From Nitrospiria bacterium (lineage in GTDB: Bacteria > Nitrospirota > Nitrospiria > DASWJH01): DNA of 49,021 bases. The position numbers were made by a program, and so were the translations under genes. Of this stretch, positions 141-6,102 are shown piece after piece (position 1 is the first letter of the stretch; each line of letters begins with the position of its first letter). The stretch lies in assembly GCA_036397255.1 (NCBI GenBank), contig DASWJH010000066.1, positions 1 through 49,021 of the forward strand, in the 5' to 3' direction. The notes under the pieces are model-generated. The model was given only the letters and a program-made list of their open reading frames with translations, had not been told where the DNA came from and did no database searches.

Positions 141-1278
141 AGGGAATGATGGGATAGGGGTTGACCAGATAGAGGCGTATGGAGAGGTTCGGTACCTGCA
201 GGAATTACAGCAGGAGCTGCGGGAGAAGCGATACGGAGCAAAGAGTATCCGAAGGGTCTACATCCCAAAACCCAATGGTCAGAAGAGACCGCTTGGGATT
301 CCCTGTATTCGGGACAGGATCGTACAGAGAGCAGTCAAAATGGTGCTGGAACCGATAGCGGAGGCAAAATTTCTTGACTGCTCTTATGGATTTCGTCCAA
401 AGCGCTCTACACGAGGAGCATCCAAACAGGTGTGGAAGTATTTAAACTTTGGATGTACTCAAGTGATTCAGGTGGACCTTCAGGCTTACTTCGACACGAT
501 CCCCCATGATCGTCTGATGGATCTTATCCGCCGATATGTAGCGGACAAGAACATCCTGAAGATGCTGAAGGCTTGGTTAAAAGCCAAGGTGGTAGATCGG
601 GGGGAAATAATCCAACCAGAGGAAGGCTCTCCCCAAGGTGGGGTGGTTTCCCCGCTTCTGTCCAACTGGTACTTACACCAGTTTGATGAGGAGTGGCATA
701 AAAGGAACAACCACCGAAAGTGGCGCTATGATGCGGTGCTTACTCGGTACTGTGATGACATCCTCATCCAAGTGCCGCGGGAGGACCCTAGAATCTGGAA
801 GGAAGCGAAGGAGATCCTTGAAGGCTTAGGACTGGGAATCAACCTGGATAAGACACAGTTTCGGGATGCCAGAGAGGGGTTTGATTATCTTGGATATCAC
901 TTCGTGAGGGATTACTCGAGCAGACATCATAAAGATGTCACCCACGTGATCCCCACGCAGGAATCCAAGAAGCGTGTATGGGACAAGATTAGGTGGTATA
1001 CGGATAAGCGCAGGTACCAGAACTTACCTGCAGCCTGGATTGTGAAACACATCAATCCAATCCTGATGGGGTGGACGAATTACTACAGTCACACCCACAG
1101 CCATCGAGTCTTTAGGCAGCTACAAACCTATACGAATGATCGATTGAGGAAGACACTGCGCTACAGAAGCAAGAAGGGTGGGGTTGGGAAGTATCGGGCA
1201 CTGCCCAATAAGGTTCTCTACGGAAGGTATGGACTTGCCTGCATAGAGATGAACCGCATCCATTATTGCTGGTCGTAA
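139..1278 (+). pseudogene. ltrA: Group II intron reverse transcriptase/maturase, N-terminally truncated
   Basis: The frame is open from 139, just after an in-frame TGA at 136, and reads as reverse transcriptase from its first codons (GVDQIEAYG, then IPKPNGQKRPLGIP, then SYGFRPKRST). The polymerase motifs are present: DLQAYFDTIPHDRL with its catalytic Asp, SPQGGVVSPLLSN, and RYCDD as the YxDD box with Cys at the variable position. The maturase (GIIM) domain follows (WIVKHINPILMGWTNYYSH). No HNH endonuclease domain follows. The first usable start is ATG 340, which lies inside the fingers region, and no ATG, GTG or TTG occurs between 139 and 340 in frame. The first roughly 60 residues and the start are missing, apparently replaced by the IS-like end at 1-140. 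Catalytic residues survive, but an expressed complete protein is unlikely. Confidence 0.85.
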
Positions 1279-2472: not shown

Positions 2473-3549
2473 TTACCTTCCCAGCGATATTCCCAAAGCC
2501 TCAGCAGAATTAACCAGACCTCCATGTGGGGGGACTGTTTTTAATTCTTTAACCGCTTCCTGAAGAGGAACGGAGGTTATATGGGGTGTTTTAAGACAGA
2601 CCATTTTCCCGAAACCACCTTCCTTAATGAGTTCAATTGCTGCCGTTCCAAAACGGGTTCCTAAAATTCTGTCAAAAGAACAGGGTGAGCCCCCTCTTTG
2701 AAGGTGTCCAAGGACCGTTACCCGAACATCCTTTCCCGTTTTTCGGCTAATTTCTTCTCCTACTTTTTTTCCAACTCCTTCCAAACGGAGCACATAACCA
2801 CTTTCTGATTTTTTTAAAACGGACATCCCTCCCCCTAAGGGTTTTGATCCTTCTGCAACAACGATGAGACAGCATTTTCTGCCTTTTTCAAATTGGCTTT
2901 GGATTTTTTCCTGTATTTTTTCCATTTCAAAGGGTATTTCCGGGATAAGAATAATGTCTGCGCCCCCGGCCATCCCGGCCTCCAAGGCAATCCATCCCCC
3001 ATAACGTCCCATGACCTCAACCACAAATATTCGGTGATGGCTTTCCGCTGTCGAATGCAGTCTGTCTAGGGCCTGGGTAACCGTCTCTACTGCCGTTCTA
3101 AAACCCAAGGTTACATCAGTGCCTGGAATATCATTATCAATTGTCTTTGGAATACCTATTAACGGACCCCCCATTTGGAACAGGCCCTGTGAAATGGTTA
3201 GGGTCCCATCCCCCCCAATTGCAATGACCGCATTTAGGCCAAGTTCCTGGATATTTTTTAACATGTTGGTTGGTTTTTCCACTGATGACCTAAGGGTTGG
3301 ATCATTTAGGGATTGCTCGAACGGGTCGGGCATGTTGGATGTTCCCAATATTGTTCCACCCAAGGGTAAAATTCCGTGGATTTTTTCAGGAGATAAGAAA
3401 ACAGATTTGGTTGGATCTAATAATCCTTCAAATCCATCCTCAATTCCGATAACATCCCAACCATTATTAAAGGAGGTTTTAAAAACCGCGCGAATTACTG
3501 CATTTAGGCCAGGACAGTCTCCCCCACCCGTTAAGACTCCTATCCTCAT
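2473..3549 (-). CDS. pfkA: 6-phosphofructokinase
   Basis: This 358-residue protein phosphorylates fructose 6-phosphate to the 1,6-bisphosphate in glycolysis. The nucleotide loop GGGDCPG is at residues 8-14. GGDGT at 112-116 has Gly at the position where pyrophosphate enzymes have Asp. IPKTIDNDIPGTD carries the catalytic Asp and has Lys (about 135) where E. coli PfkA has Gly. GRYGGWIALEAGMAGGAD follows and forms part of the sugar phosphate site. The Gly/Lys combination is known from ATP-dependent actinobacterial enzymes, so ATP is the likely donor, although Lys is shared with pyrophosphate types. The start is preceded by GAAAGGAAA. The gene is divergent from lpxC. Confidence 0.93.
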   Translation of the reverse strand: MRIGVLTGGGDCPGLNAVIRAVFKTSFNNGWDVIGIEDGFEGLLDPTKSVFLSPEKIHGILPLGGTILGTSNMPDPFEQSLNDPTLRSSVEKPTNMLKNIQELGLNAVIAIGGDGTLTISQGLFQMGGPLIGIPKTIDNDIPGTDVTLGFRTAVETVTQALDRLHSTAESHHRIFVVEVMGRYGGWIALEAGMAGGADIILIPEIPFEMEKIQEKIQSQFEKGRKCCLIVVAEGSKPLGGGMSVLKKSESGYVLRLEGVGKKVGEEISRKTGKDVRVTVLGHLQRGGSPCSFDRILGTRFGTAAIELIKEGGFGKMVCLKTPHITSVPLQEAVKELKTVPPHGGLVNSAEALGISLGR

Positions 3550-3733
3550 ATGAGAATTTCCTTTCTATTTTAAATCCTGATGTGATTTTAAGGAAAATTT
3601 GTCAAAAGAAAGGAGGATATGGCAAAAACGCAACTTTCCCTTTAGGATTTGTGTTGTTTATGCAACATAAATTTATTTGAATGGTTTACTTTTTAATTTA
3701 GAAAATTAATCTTTAAAGTGTTATTTTCCTTTA

Positions 3734-3784
3734 ATAACATGTTGTTATATGTTAATTGTTTTTTATTTTAAATTATGGAATAAT
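3734..3784 (+). promoter_or_regulatory. Putative lpxC promoter with upstream palindrome
   Basis: TTGTTT (3756-3761) and AATAAT (3779-3784) are 17 bases apart, a sigma70-like arrangement 47 bases before lpxC. Immediately upstream lies the perfect inverted repeat ATAACA-TGT-TGTTAT (3734-3748), placed where an activator or repressor could bind. The regulator is unknown. Confidence 0.45.
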
Positions 3785-3830
3785 ATTTGCATAAGTTGTA
3801 GTTTTGTCTTTCTTAAAGAAGGAGTTATAA

Positions 3831-4751
3831 ATGAGGCAACAGAGATCTATAGCTAAGTTAGTAACATGTTCAGGAATTGGACTTCATTCCGGACAGGTTG
3901 TTAATATAAATTTTTTACCCGCTCCAGTCAATACGGGTGTCGTTTTTATTAGAAGGGATCTCAATCCCCCTGTCTTTATTAAAGGGGTGGCTCAAAATGT
4001 AATAGCAACCGATCTTTCTACTACATTAGGCCGCCAGGGTTGTGTGATTCAAACCGTGGAACATTTACTCTCGGCTGTCATGGGTCTAGGAATTGATAAC
4101 CTATATGTTGAGGTGGATGGCCCCGAAATCCCTATTTTGGATGGTAGTGCAAGTCCCTTTGTTTCTGTTTTAAAGGAAGCCAGAATTGTTTCTCAGGGAA
4201 TTGGACAGTTCTATATGAAGATATTAAAAACCATTGAAGTGAAGGAAGGAAACAAGCGGATTTGGATTGAACCTTACCCTCATTTTAAAGTCCAATGTTC
4301 TATTGAATACCCTCACTCAGTGATTGGGCGGCAGTCTTTTATTTTTCGAAACAAAGAAAACGAGTTTGAGCAGGAGATTGCAGGGGCTAGGACTTTTTGC
4401 TTTCTTCACGAAATTGAAGCCCTTTGGAATAGGGGTGTTGCCCGAGGGGGCTCCCTAGAAAATGCCATTGTGGTGGGGGAGAAAGGGATCTTAAATGAAA
4501 ATGGATTGCGATTTGAGGATGAATTTGCCCGACATAAGGTTTTAGATCTTCTTGGGGACCTGTTCCTAATTGGAATGCCCGTTATTGGGAAGGTTGTTGC
4601 CGAACGAGGCGGGCATGCCCTACACACCTGCTTAGTTTCTAAGATTTTATCCAATGAAAAATGCTGGAAAATAATTAATCCTTCCGAACAAGAGGTTCCT
4701 GTTATCCTGCCTGGGGTTGAAAGCCTGACCCCGCAACGCCTATCTCTATAA
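3831..4751 (+). CDS. lpxC: UDP-3-O-acyl-N-acetylglucosamine deacetylase
   Basis: LpxC removes the acetyl group from UDP-3-O-acyl-GlcNAc, the committed step of lipid A synthesis in the cytoplasm. The 306 residues match the usual length. IGLHSG (about 16-21) opens the fold. TVEHLLSAV supplies catalytic Glu77 and zinc ligand His78. RHKVLDLLGDL gives zinc ligands His235 and Asp239. GHALHTCL holds the general acid His262. ATG 3831 follows GAAGGAG at 3817-3823. Its presence shows that the cell makes lipopolysaccharide. It is not surrounded by the fts/mur cluster found in proteobacteria, and it has its own promoter-like region. Confidence 0.96.
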   Translation: MRQQRSIAKLVTCSGIGLHSGQVVNINFLPAPVNTGVVFIRRDLNPPVFIKGVAQNVIATDLSTTLGRQGCVIQTVEHLLSAVMGLGIDNLYVEVDGPEIPILDGSASPFVSVLKEARIVSQGIGQFYMKILKTIEVKEGNKRIWIEPYPHFKVQCSIEYPHSVIGRQSFIFRNKENEFEQEIAGARTFCFLHEIEALWNRGVARGGSLENAIVVGEKGILNENGLRFEDEFARHKVLDLLGDLFLIGMPVIGKVVAERGGHALHTCLVSKILSNEKCWKIINPSEQEVPVILPGVESLTPQRLSL

Positions 4752-5190: not shown

Positions 5191-5329
5191 TATAATTTCG
5201 TTATGAGGTAACGAAAAAATAATGTTAATTTTGGCTTGAAAATATAAAAAAGGGTATTAAACTGGGGAAGGTTACTGTATAATGAAAGTCAAATTAGAAG
5301 TGGGGTCCCCAAGAGGACCCCACCTTTTT
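5191..5329 (+). ncRNA. Candidate small RNA with operator-like palindrome
   Basis: TATAAT at 5191-5196 is followed directly by a perfect 8-bp inverted repeat, TTTCGTTA-TGAGG-TAACGAAA (5196-5216). About 100 bases further on is a strong hairpin ending in CTTTTTG (5300-5329). A second TATAAT lies at 5278-5283. Together they could define a plus-strand transcript of roughly 125 bases that carries no gene. The -35 region is poor, so the promoter call is weak. Alternatively the hairpin ends read-through from lpxC. Confidence 0.3.
5300..5328 (+). terminator. Strong intrinsic terminator hairpin
   Basis: GTGGGGTCC (5300-5308) pairs perfectly with GGACCCCAC (5315-5323) around a 6-base loop. On the plus strand it is followed by CTTTTT. 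On the minus strand the downstream sequence is TTCTAATTTG, a poorer U-tract, so the hairpin favours plus-strand transcripts. It could also close the minus-strand operon ending at 5345. Confidence 0.7.
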
Positions 5330-5344
5330 GATGCTTCAAGAACC

Positions 5345-5407
5345 CTACTTCTTTTTCTTTGCTTTTGCACTGCTCTTTTTTTTCGCGGGTTTTTTCTTAG
5401 TTGCCAA
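5345..5407 (-). CDS. Lys/Ala-rich micro-ORF, 20 residues
   Basis: A TTG start at 5407 preceded by GAAAGGG gives a 20-residue peptide made almost only of Lys, Ala, Ser and Pro (ATKKKPAKKKSSAKAKKKK after the first residue). It resembles the basic tails of histone H1-like and other nucleic-acid-binding proteins. It lies 80 bases after the HARE-HTH gene on the same strand, and the strong hairpin at 5300-5323 follows its stop. The near-perfect composition in one frame argues against chance. The TTG start and short length leave real doubt. The longer frame at 5272-5469 on the same strand has no such bias. Confidence 0.4.
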   Translation of the reverse strand: MATKKKPAKKKSSAKAKKKK

Positions 5408-5486
5408 GTCCCTTTCACCCCCTTTCCTCTTTCTCTATGGTGGTTATCCTCCATATGCCCTTGGGCCATGGAAGCTCTTGAAAACT

Positions 5487-6014
5487 TTAAGAAGCGGACT
5501 GAAGGAGCCGCTCTTCAACAATCTCAAAGGTATTCGGAGCAACCTTCCTAAAACGTTTATCCCTATTCAAAGAAATGGCAATTGATGTGACCGGGGTTTT
5601 TCCCCTAATTCGGATTCCACCTTCAGTTAAGCTGTGGTAGATATCCTTAGCATGCATGGCTTTTCCTGCTTCCTTAAGTAAGAGGAAGGCGGCCTGGGGA
5701 ACACTTAAACCCACATATTTTGTTTTTCCTAAAAGGATTTCTCTGGATTGGTCTGTTACGTCCGGGACAGAGGTAAATTGGGGTCTTGCAGCCCTTTCTT
5801 TATCGTTTTCTGCGATGATCTGATGTGAAAGGTTAGCAAGTTTTGCTTTATCAACTTCAACACGGTAGAGAGTTTCGGCTAACTCTAAGTACTTCTTAAC
5901 TGTTTTAACTTCATCATCGACCTTTTCCCGCTTTTTTTGAAGTTCCTGCAGCTTGTTTTTATAAACGCACACCCGCTGCTCTAAACCATCGATGATGTCT
6001 TTTAGCTCTTCCAT
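5487..6014 (-). CDS. HARE-HTH domain protein with N-terminal coiled coil
   Basis: The first 80 or so of the 175 residues form a Leu/Lys/Glu-rich coiled coil (LKDIIDGLEQRV onward). The C-terminal part (about 100-168) reads as a HARE-HTH winged helix: SVPQAAFLLLKEAGKAMHAK, then the TPVTSIAISLNRDKRF helix and KVAPNTFEI wing. HARE-HTH domains occur in eukaryotic chromatin proteins, RNA polymerase delta subunits and restriction-linked proteins, and have been proposed to link DNA recognition to modification. No enzyme domain is fused here and no methylase or nuclease lies nearby. The gene has a clear promoter at 6074-6102 and a Lys-rich micro-ORF downstream. A transcription or nucleoid role is an inference. 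Confidence 0.75.
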   Translation of the reverse strand: MEELKDIIDGLEQRVCVYKNKLQELQKKREKVDDEVKTVKKYLELAETLYRVEVDKAKLANLSHQIIAENDKERAARPQFTSVPDVTDQSREILLGKTKYVGLSVPQAAFLLLKEAGKAMHAKDIYHSLTEGGIRIRGKTPVTSIAISLNRDKRFRKVAPNTFEIVEERLLQSAS

Positions 6015-6073: not shown

Positions 6074-6102
6074 ATCCTAGCATAGCATTTTATATCTGTC
6101 AA
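6074..6102 (-). promoter_or_regulatory. Sigma70 promoter of the HARE-HTH gene
   Basis: On the minus strand, TTGACA (6102-6097) and TAGGAT (6079-6074) are separated by exactly 17 bases. The -10 box lies about 60 bases upstream of the start at 6014. This is one of the best sigma70 matches in the window. Confidence 0.75.

Follow-up and report, generated by a model that had tools for sequence, protein, structure and literature searches.

The short reading frame that follows the gene for a HARE-HTH protein in a contig of a Nitrospiria bacterium is a conserved gene, and its coding status is well supported by comparison. The frame, which lies in a window of 49,021 nucleotides (the whole stretch of DNA that was analysed), starts with TTG and would encode a Lys/Ala-rich mini-protein of 20 residues. 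Such frames lie behind two unrelated partners and also occur without the HARE gene. Thus, the mini-protein is the constant element of these loci, and the partner, which has a predicted winged helix in both cases, is interchangeable. The exchange of the partner, the translation and promoter signals, and the linkage all emerge from comparison between genomes.

The exchange of the putative DNA-binder beside a mini-protein that stayed points to an overlooked nucleic-acid-packing or gene-regulating module. In the reading that we prefer, and to which we give about an even chance of being right, the operon encodes a polycation resembling a histone tail, together with a winged-helix protein that would serve as its dedicated partner or as an autoregulator.

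Structure of the locus

The micro-ORF MATKKKPAKKKSSAKAKKKK (positions 5345–5407, minus strand) ends in a TAG stop and begins 79 bases after the stop codon of the HARE gene. A Shine–Dalgarno (SD) sequence, AAAGGGGGTGA (5415–5425, minus strand), is placed 7 nt ahead of the TTG. Its predicted pairing with the end of the 16S rRNA amounts to −16.6 kcal/mol, against −13.2 kcal/mol for the best of the 22 other window genes compared, whose starts were used as given in the ORF list. Nine Lys/Ala-rich short frames occur in the window, and that of MATKKKPAKKKSSAKAKKKK is the only one with strong SD pairing, the next reaching −5.9 kcal/mol. The micro-ORF is probably expressed.

The gene murJ lies upstream of the HARE gene, which is followed by the micro-ORF, a stem-loop, and then the convergent gene lpxC (3831–4751, plus strand), a locus marker in many relatives. 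The stem-loop, detected by a pattern scan 3′ of the micro-ORF (5300–5323, minus strand), is a possible terminator. It scored as terminator-like only for the plus strand, that is, for the lpxC side, and its minus-strand T run is weaker. An Rfam scan of the window at gathering thresholds returned no match, which rules out a known RNA element at the locus at those thresholds. Elsewhere in the window, a 312-aa ORF (340–1278, plus strand) resembles by eye a group-II-intron-type reverse transcriptase (SPQGGVVSPLLSN, RYCDD), and the same scan gave no intron match in the window.

The HARE-HTH protein

The gene upstream of the micro-ORF (5487–6014, minus strand) has an ATG start and encodes 175 residues. 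The earlier note had described its product, from sequence alone, as a coiled coil plus a HARE-HTH domain, and both parts of that description hold. Residues 105–163 (5526–5702, minus strand) match PF05066 with E = 2.3e-6 and 28.4 bits, above the curated cut-off of 25.9, and no further PF05066 match turned up in this genome. An AlphaFold2 model (mean pLDDT 80.3, pTM 0.42) predicts a single helix over residues 2–71, a low-confidence linker, and a winged helix, with pLDDT of about 80–90 across the HARE-HTH domain; structure matches agree with the profile in assigning a winged-helix fold. The predicted coiled-coil helix (5802–6011, minus strand; residues 2–71) has hydrophobic residues at 85% of its heptad a/d positions, compared with 42% overall, and Y42–A46, T48, L49, R51–E53, and K56 are invariant within this part.

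With this model, Foldseek gave Rok as its first match (E = 2.7e-3) and also the delta subunit 8x6g_E (E = 4.3e-3). A second aligner gave the globular domain of yeast Hho1 (1yqa, Z 8.2), delta (2m4k, Z 8.0), and Rok (Z 7.2). These fold matches, Z values near 8 included, are at a level common among winged helices, and no homology to the linker histone is claimed. A sequence search of solved structures with the HARE alignment reached a best E of 0.014, with coiled-coil peptides. HARE-HTH domains have been proposed to read modified DNA, according to part of one report (PMC11037411).

Conservation of the micro-ORF beside the HARE gene

A protein search across 58 genomes that were drawn as relatives (own genome counted) gave 42 HARE matches in 41 of them. 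A TTG-started Lys/Ala micro-ORF lies downstream in all 42 HARE loci of this first survey, for one of which (L008) the script took an inner GTG although the TTG is present. This conservation is far beyond chance. The earlier note had named two outcomes that would refute its reading, a frame not conserved in relatives and assignment of the protein to another fold, and both checks came out in favour of that reading.

Among named genome contigs, 186 stretches encode a HARE relative, and the best 80 of the 186 were kept. Their titles name Nitrospira, Nitrospirae, Nitrospirales, Nitrospiraceae, or Ca. Manganitrophus in 79 cases and an uncultured Nitrosospira in one. These best 80 of 186 loci span 593 kb, and exactly one SD-led Lys/Ala frame is found in 76 of them. 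Two such frames stand in tandem in L044 and again in L058, one locus (L064) stops at a contig end, and L070 has one unrelated extra SD-led frame, the only off-target in the 593 kb. Two HARE genes about 7.7 kb apart, each with a micro-ORF and an lpxC match, were seen on contig JABMDK010000011.1 (L060, L075), an apparent duplication of the whole block.

A count over 172 HARE rows, several of which represent the same genome twice, placed a micro-ORF in 162. The ten missing rows comprise four script errors in which the alignment ran through a stop (L004, L005, L006, and L046; the micro-ORFs of L004–L006 appear in separate output, and the coordinates of L046 show it to be the L005 region), two micro-ORFs interrupted by N runs (L164, L166), the contig end of L064, two rows for the decayed HARE of L159, and a partial match in genome G178 (L160).

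In a draw of 198 Nitrospirota genomes across the phylum, the HARE profile matches 62, and a micro-ORF lies downstream in 61 of these: 53 by a strict script for SD-led Lys/Ala frames and eight by inspection (G030, G199, G210, G222, G157, G214, G173, and G164, with those of G199 and G164 interrupted by N). The sole exception, G178, has a partial, weak HARE match (E 3.2e-7) and no micro-ORF there. The linkage of micro-ORF and HARE is thus well supported by comparison, and the pairing claimed in the earlier note stands in both surveys.

Lys/Ala-rich frames are low in complexity, and their detection here uses composition, which could favour a chance or low-complexity artefact. We regard the probability of such an artefact as close to nil, because controls over 129 partner loci yielded comparable frames in 0/129 cases antisense downstream, 0/129 inside the partner gene, and 1/92 upstream (37 second-partner loci began at the gene start and had no upstream sequence), and the 593 kb of named loci held the single off-target frame given above. 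Furthermore, the micro-ORF pattern was found in 59 of the 198 genomes, against 3 of 198 for the reversed pattern, and the frames show a third-position bias (below). In several genomes, the tally script placed the start at an in-frame codon further upstream, and for G032 and G039 it listed the second copy.

Micro-ORFs without an intact HARE gene

The micro-ORF also persists where HARE does not. In G173, the HARE gene has acquired stops and frame changes, and MATKKGAKKKKR is retained with its SD and stem-loop. No HARE ortholog is present in G179, G185 and G212 (MATKKAAKKKKK), or in G218 (MAMKKAAKKKKK), and all four keep a micro-ORF beside lpxC. Similarly, HARE is absent from G216, which has a 20-residue member with an ATG start and in which no lpxC was found. 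Searched for PF05066 with E values up to 0.01, the genomes G173, G179, G185, G216, and G218 gave no match; G212 carries a different HARE-HTH protein, far from the micro-ORF.

At the lpxC loci of other Nitrospirota families, a convergent micro-ORF is present in 23 of 29, a doubtful one (L252) among them, and none was seen in the other six. In a set picked mainly for HARE absence, it occurs at lpxC in 7 of 28 loci. The 21 loci without one there belong to families f5 (seven), f8 (six), f18 (four), f14, f16, and f22 (one each), and to genome G191. Some Nitrospiria families likewise have none at the place searched. The micro-ORF is therefore dispensable or has moved in some lineages. The other three sides of lpxC in the 28- and 29-locus sets yielded six weak Lys-rich frames, with no strong SD by eye.

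Two f18 genomes (G062, G079) have no micro-ORF at lpxC and carry one behind a winged-helix gene on another contig. Pairing with a partner is thus not only a by-product of position, and pure hitch-hiking beside lpxC is weakened as an explanation. Some micro-ORFs have no winged-helix partner. The lpxC loci, together with those described next, lead us to reject a restriction of the micro-ORF to HARE. The pairing with the HARE-HTH protein described in the earlier note is upheld, but the micro-ORF is no accessory of that protein: it also follows a winged-helix protein unrelated to HARE-HTH, and it occurs in some genomes whose HARE gene is decayed or missing.

A second winged-helix partner

In most of the inspected micro-ORF loci of other classes, the gene directly upstream encodes a different protein of about 180 aa, with an ArsR-like winged helix and a C-terminal part resembling a Pol-beta-type nucleotidyltransferase. 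A model of this protein (mean pLDDT 83.6) has AntR as its first Foldseek match (E = 2.8e-4), and its HTH_5 (ArsR) Pfam scores fall just under the cut-off. It is present in 67 of the 198 drawn genomes, with a clear micro-ORF behind it in 65 (62 by the strict script and three, in G163, G208, and G135, by inspection with an inner ATG). In the remaining two, G078 has a doubtful 102-residue frame, and the contig of G112 ends. The list of 62 HARE genomes and that of 67 second-partner genomes overlap only in G178. Two or three copies of the micro-ORF occur in 18 of 62 second-partner loci.

One locus of family f19 (L250) has a winged-helix/Pol-beta gene (3319–3837, minus strand), then a HEPN gene (2877–3326, minus strand) and three micro-ORFs. 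Here the Polbeta match reaches 36.7 bits (cut-off 26.9) and the HEPN match 25.5 bits (cut-off 22). This HEPN/MNT-like pair may represent an ancestral upstream part. Among the partners searched, Pfam recognises the Pol-beta-like part in L250 alone.

These matches might suggest a toxin–antitoxin-like remnant, in which the loci descend from a winged-helix/nucleotidyltransferase and a HEPN gene, with the basic peptide as a third component. Gaps of about 490–750 nt before the micro-ORF in f15, f18, f19, and f26 would leave room for such a gene. However, the protein in the f15 gap has no Pfam match, three other second partners tested against Pfam have no nucleotidyltransferase match, and the HARE loci have neither domain, and we consider a remnant of this kind very improbable.

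Promoters and downstream stem-loops

A sigma-70-type promoter, TTGACA-17-TAGGAT with a TG ahead of the second hexamer, precedes the HARE gene (6074–6102, minus strand) and scores 10/12. Alone, it is weak evidence, because its stretch contains three promoter-like sites where 4.1 are expected from shuffles. Across loci, the best site upstream of HARE scores at least 10/12 in 38 of 39, compared with about 7% of shuffles, and the promoter proposed in the earlier note is upheld. Second-partner genes have upstream sites of at least 10/12 in 30 of 30 cases, against 9.5% of shuffles. An exact TTGACA is found in 16 of 18 printed HARE promoters and 29 of 30 second-partner promoters. For six micro-ORFs without an intact HARE gene, no good promoter was found within the 150 nt searched. 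All shuffles, for promoters and stems alike, preserve mononucleotide composition only. In the second-partner promoters of L282–L311, a T-rich stretch immediately precedes TTGACA, and leaders are very short.

In Nitrospiraceae, the −10 box of HARE promoters is followed by a palindromic element, AAGCAAGCATGCTT. In a scan of 25 genomes, the element turned up in 11, each time as a single copy at the HARE promoter. All 11 belong to the 18 genomes that have an intact HARE ortholog, and none to the 7 that lack one. This placement is a hint of autoregulation; a wider regulon is set aside, given the single match per genome where the element is present. Second-partner promoters gave no sign of a common operator of this sort: no palindrome is shared, and arms average 5.0, compared with 4.5 for shuffled sequences.

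Of 141 micro-ORFs, 127 have a stem of 9 or more pairs behind them, compared with 23 of 423 shuffles, and 60 are followed by a T run. A GCCA loop was observed in 61 of the 127 stems (Nitrospira-type loci, for example, L193 and L010). The 80 named loci hold 49 RAGGCCACTY-type sites, most of which look tied to the place downstream of the micro-ORF. Three f23 loci (L258, L259, L264) have GGGAATACCCAAAA in common after the micro-ORF.

Peptide sequence and selection

The 141 members selected by SD and Lys/Ala composition range from 11 to 113 residues, with 54% Lys and 30% Ala, and start with TTG in 131 cases, ATG in 7, and GTG in 3; since both features were required, the figures for SD, start, and composition are partly circular. 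No SD was required for the first-survey and 172-row counts. The longest member of all, in G215, has 116 residues. Repeat-expanded members of 44–113 residues, with units such as AAKKKAPAKK, occur in L036, L037, L025, and L040, and suggest repeat gain and loss. The HC2 profile PF07382, run on five peptides, gave at best 35.8 bits (the 116-aa member), below its cut-off of 40, then 23.4 bits for the 113-aa member and no match for the window peptide. A fused form is rejected, as none of 42 HARE proteins and none of 17 second-partner proteins has a Lys/Ala tail in its own frame.

Among 12-residue members (n = 55), diversity at codon positions 1, 2, and 3 is 0.035, 0.029, and 0.277, a third-position excess reached by 0 of 20,000 permutations; positions beyond the SD and after the stop have diversities of 0.46–0.73. 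The excess is reached by 0 of 20,000 permutations for 13-mers (n = 23) and 27 of 20,000 for 17-mers (n = 6), and is not significant for 18-mers (n = 11; 1608 of 20,000). Because SD and composition were used to choose the set, members that have diverged strongly would escape it. The micro-ORF varies mainly at third codon positions, which is evidence of selection on its peptide. Near-identical peptides of equal length differ by 94 synonymous and 13 other codon changes, a count that is biased and no proof. The histone-tail-like character given to the peptide in the earlier note is borne out by its Lys/Ala-rich composition.

Alternatively, the frame could be a cis-acting element, in which translation of a polybasic stretch near the mRNA end alters mRNA stability or HARE expression, with the peptide as a by-product. 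This would suit members as short as 11 residues, the position directly before the stem-loop, and the conserved weak TTG start (52 of 53 in the HARE set). We nevertheless think it unlikely: amino acids are kept while third positions vary, long repeat-expanded members exist, the micro-ORF survives without HARE, and the window has no same-strand downstream gene to attenuate.

Proposed role of the operon

In the reading that we prefer, the first gene would provide a protein that has a winged helix behind an N-terminal coiled coil and probably binds DNA as a dimer. The second would be translated on its own, from a strong initiation site, into a polycationic mini-protein similar in composition to a histone H1 tail. 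This mini-protein most likely binds polyanions by charge, because its composition is kept while its length varies tenfold, and it would neutralise or condense them, DNA first. DNA as the target is suggested by the H1-like composition, by the type of partner found in each half of the phylum, and by the DNA binding reported in vitro for AlgP KPAA peptides (PMC9239181, in part). The winged-helix protein might act as a DNA-binding head working with a separate tail, as a local autoregulator of the operon, or as both, and a role in the nucleoid or in transcription would be plausible. All 7 genomes tested have HU-family genes, so the mini-protein is no stand-in for HU, and there is no shortage of basic nucleoid proteins.

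Polycations bind RNA and polyphosphate besides DNA. Some very small basic proteins, such as THX, bL37, and eL41, belong to the ribosome, and the mini-protein could similarly be a ribosome- or RNA-associated peptide that binds rRNA or mRNA, with the winged-helix gene only as its regulator. We hold this to be rather unlikely. The very strong SD, the strong promoters, the very small size, and the high Lys content all fit such a peptide, but a ribosomal protein that occupies a fixed binding site would not be expected to have repeats of low complexity or to vary tenfold in length, and in each half of the phylum the fold of the partner is a DNA-binding one.

The long members share repeats similar to the KPAA domain of AlgP, an H1-tail-like repeat domain needed for even spacing of polyphosphate granules (PMC9239181, in part). 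An AlgP-like polycation that binds polyphosphate or organises granules is nonetheless quite improbable here, as the neighbourhoods examined consist of lpxC, murJ, and winged-helix genes and include no linked polyphosphate gene, and members of 11–12 residues are without repeats.

A stricter form of the preferred reading is a split linker-histone analogue, in which an H1-like head and tail are separate genes of one operon, the tail comes down to 11–12 residues in Nitrospira, and the head has been exchanged, in one part of the phylum, for an unrelated winged-helix protein, with the tail retained. This is possible, though we lean against it. If true, the tail would be one of the smallest conserved nucleic-acid-packing proteins.

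If translated, the micro-ORF would represent a protein family over much of the phylum, including Nitrospira nitrifiers, Ca. Manganitrophus, and others. Gene callers in common use would pass over such a mini-protein for its size, and trypsin would destroy a Lys-rich one before mass spectrometry. A search of the open-access literature found no description of a Lys-rich micro-ORF in this setting. Genome searches covered the Nitrospirota and, beyond it, plasmids, where the HARE protein matched no relatives; restriction to the phylum is not claimed. The exchange of partners around a constant basic peptide may serve as a natural experiment on the role of a minimal polycation in the bacterial cell, and the idea of a 12-residue peptide as an independently selected chromatin or RNA protein becomes testable.

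Comparison with known systems

The second partner shares an ArsR-like winged helix with ArsR-family repressors, and family f19 shares a Polbeta domain and a HEPN gene with HEPN/MNT-type operons, HEPN being found in f19 only. We know of no Lys-rich micro-ORF that forms part of either kind of operon.

Rok of Bacillus subtilis, an H-NS-like DNA-bridging protein, has an oligomerising N-terminal domain and a C-terminal winged helix (PMC6936261, in part). The HARE protein is likewise predicted to combine a coiled coil with a winged helix, but the match is weak, the fold is common, and no sequence relation is claimed; no separate polybasic gene is reported for Rok in the part consulted (PMC6936261). 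The RNA polymerase delta subunit (RpoE) of Bacillota shares the HARE-type winged helix, and has a folded domain at its N-terminus and a C-terminal region that is disordered and strongly acidic (PMC7749165, in part). In the HARE protein, by contrast, the coiled coil comes first and the domain last, with a short C-terminus and a linked peptide of basic character. With this reversed domain order and no acidic tail, it does not belong with the delta subunits.

AlgP/PhaF and Hc2-type H1-like proteins have, like the micro-ORF, Lys/Ala/Pro-rich, positively charged repeat tails with variable repeat number. Here, however, a separate gene encodes the tail, which can comprise as few as 11 residues, and no head domain was seen in its frame. 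Linker histone H1 unites a winged helix with a Lys/Ala/Pro-rich tail in one chain, whereas in these bacteria both features are brought together in one operon, as two separate polypeptides of which the partner fold is exchangeable.
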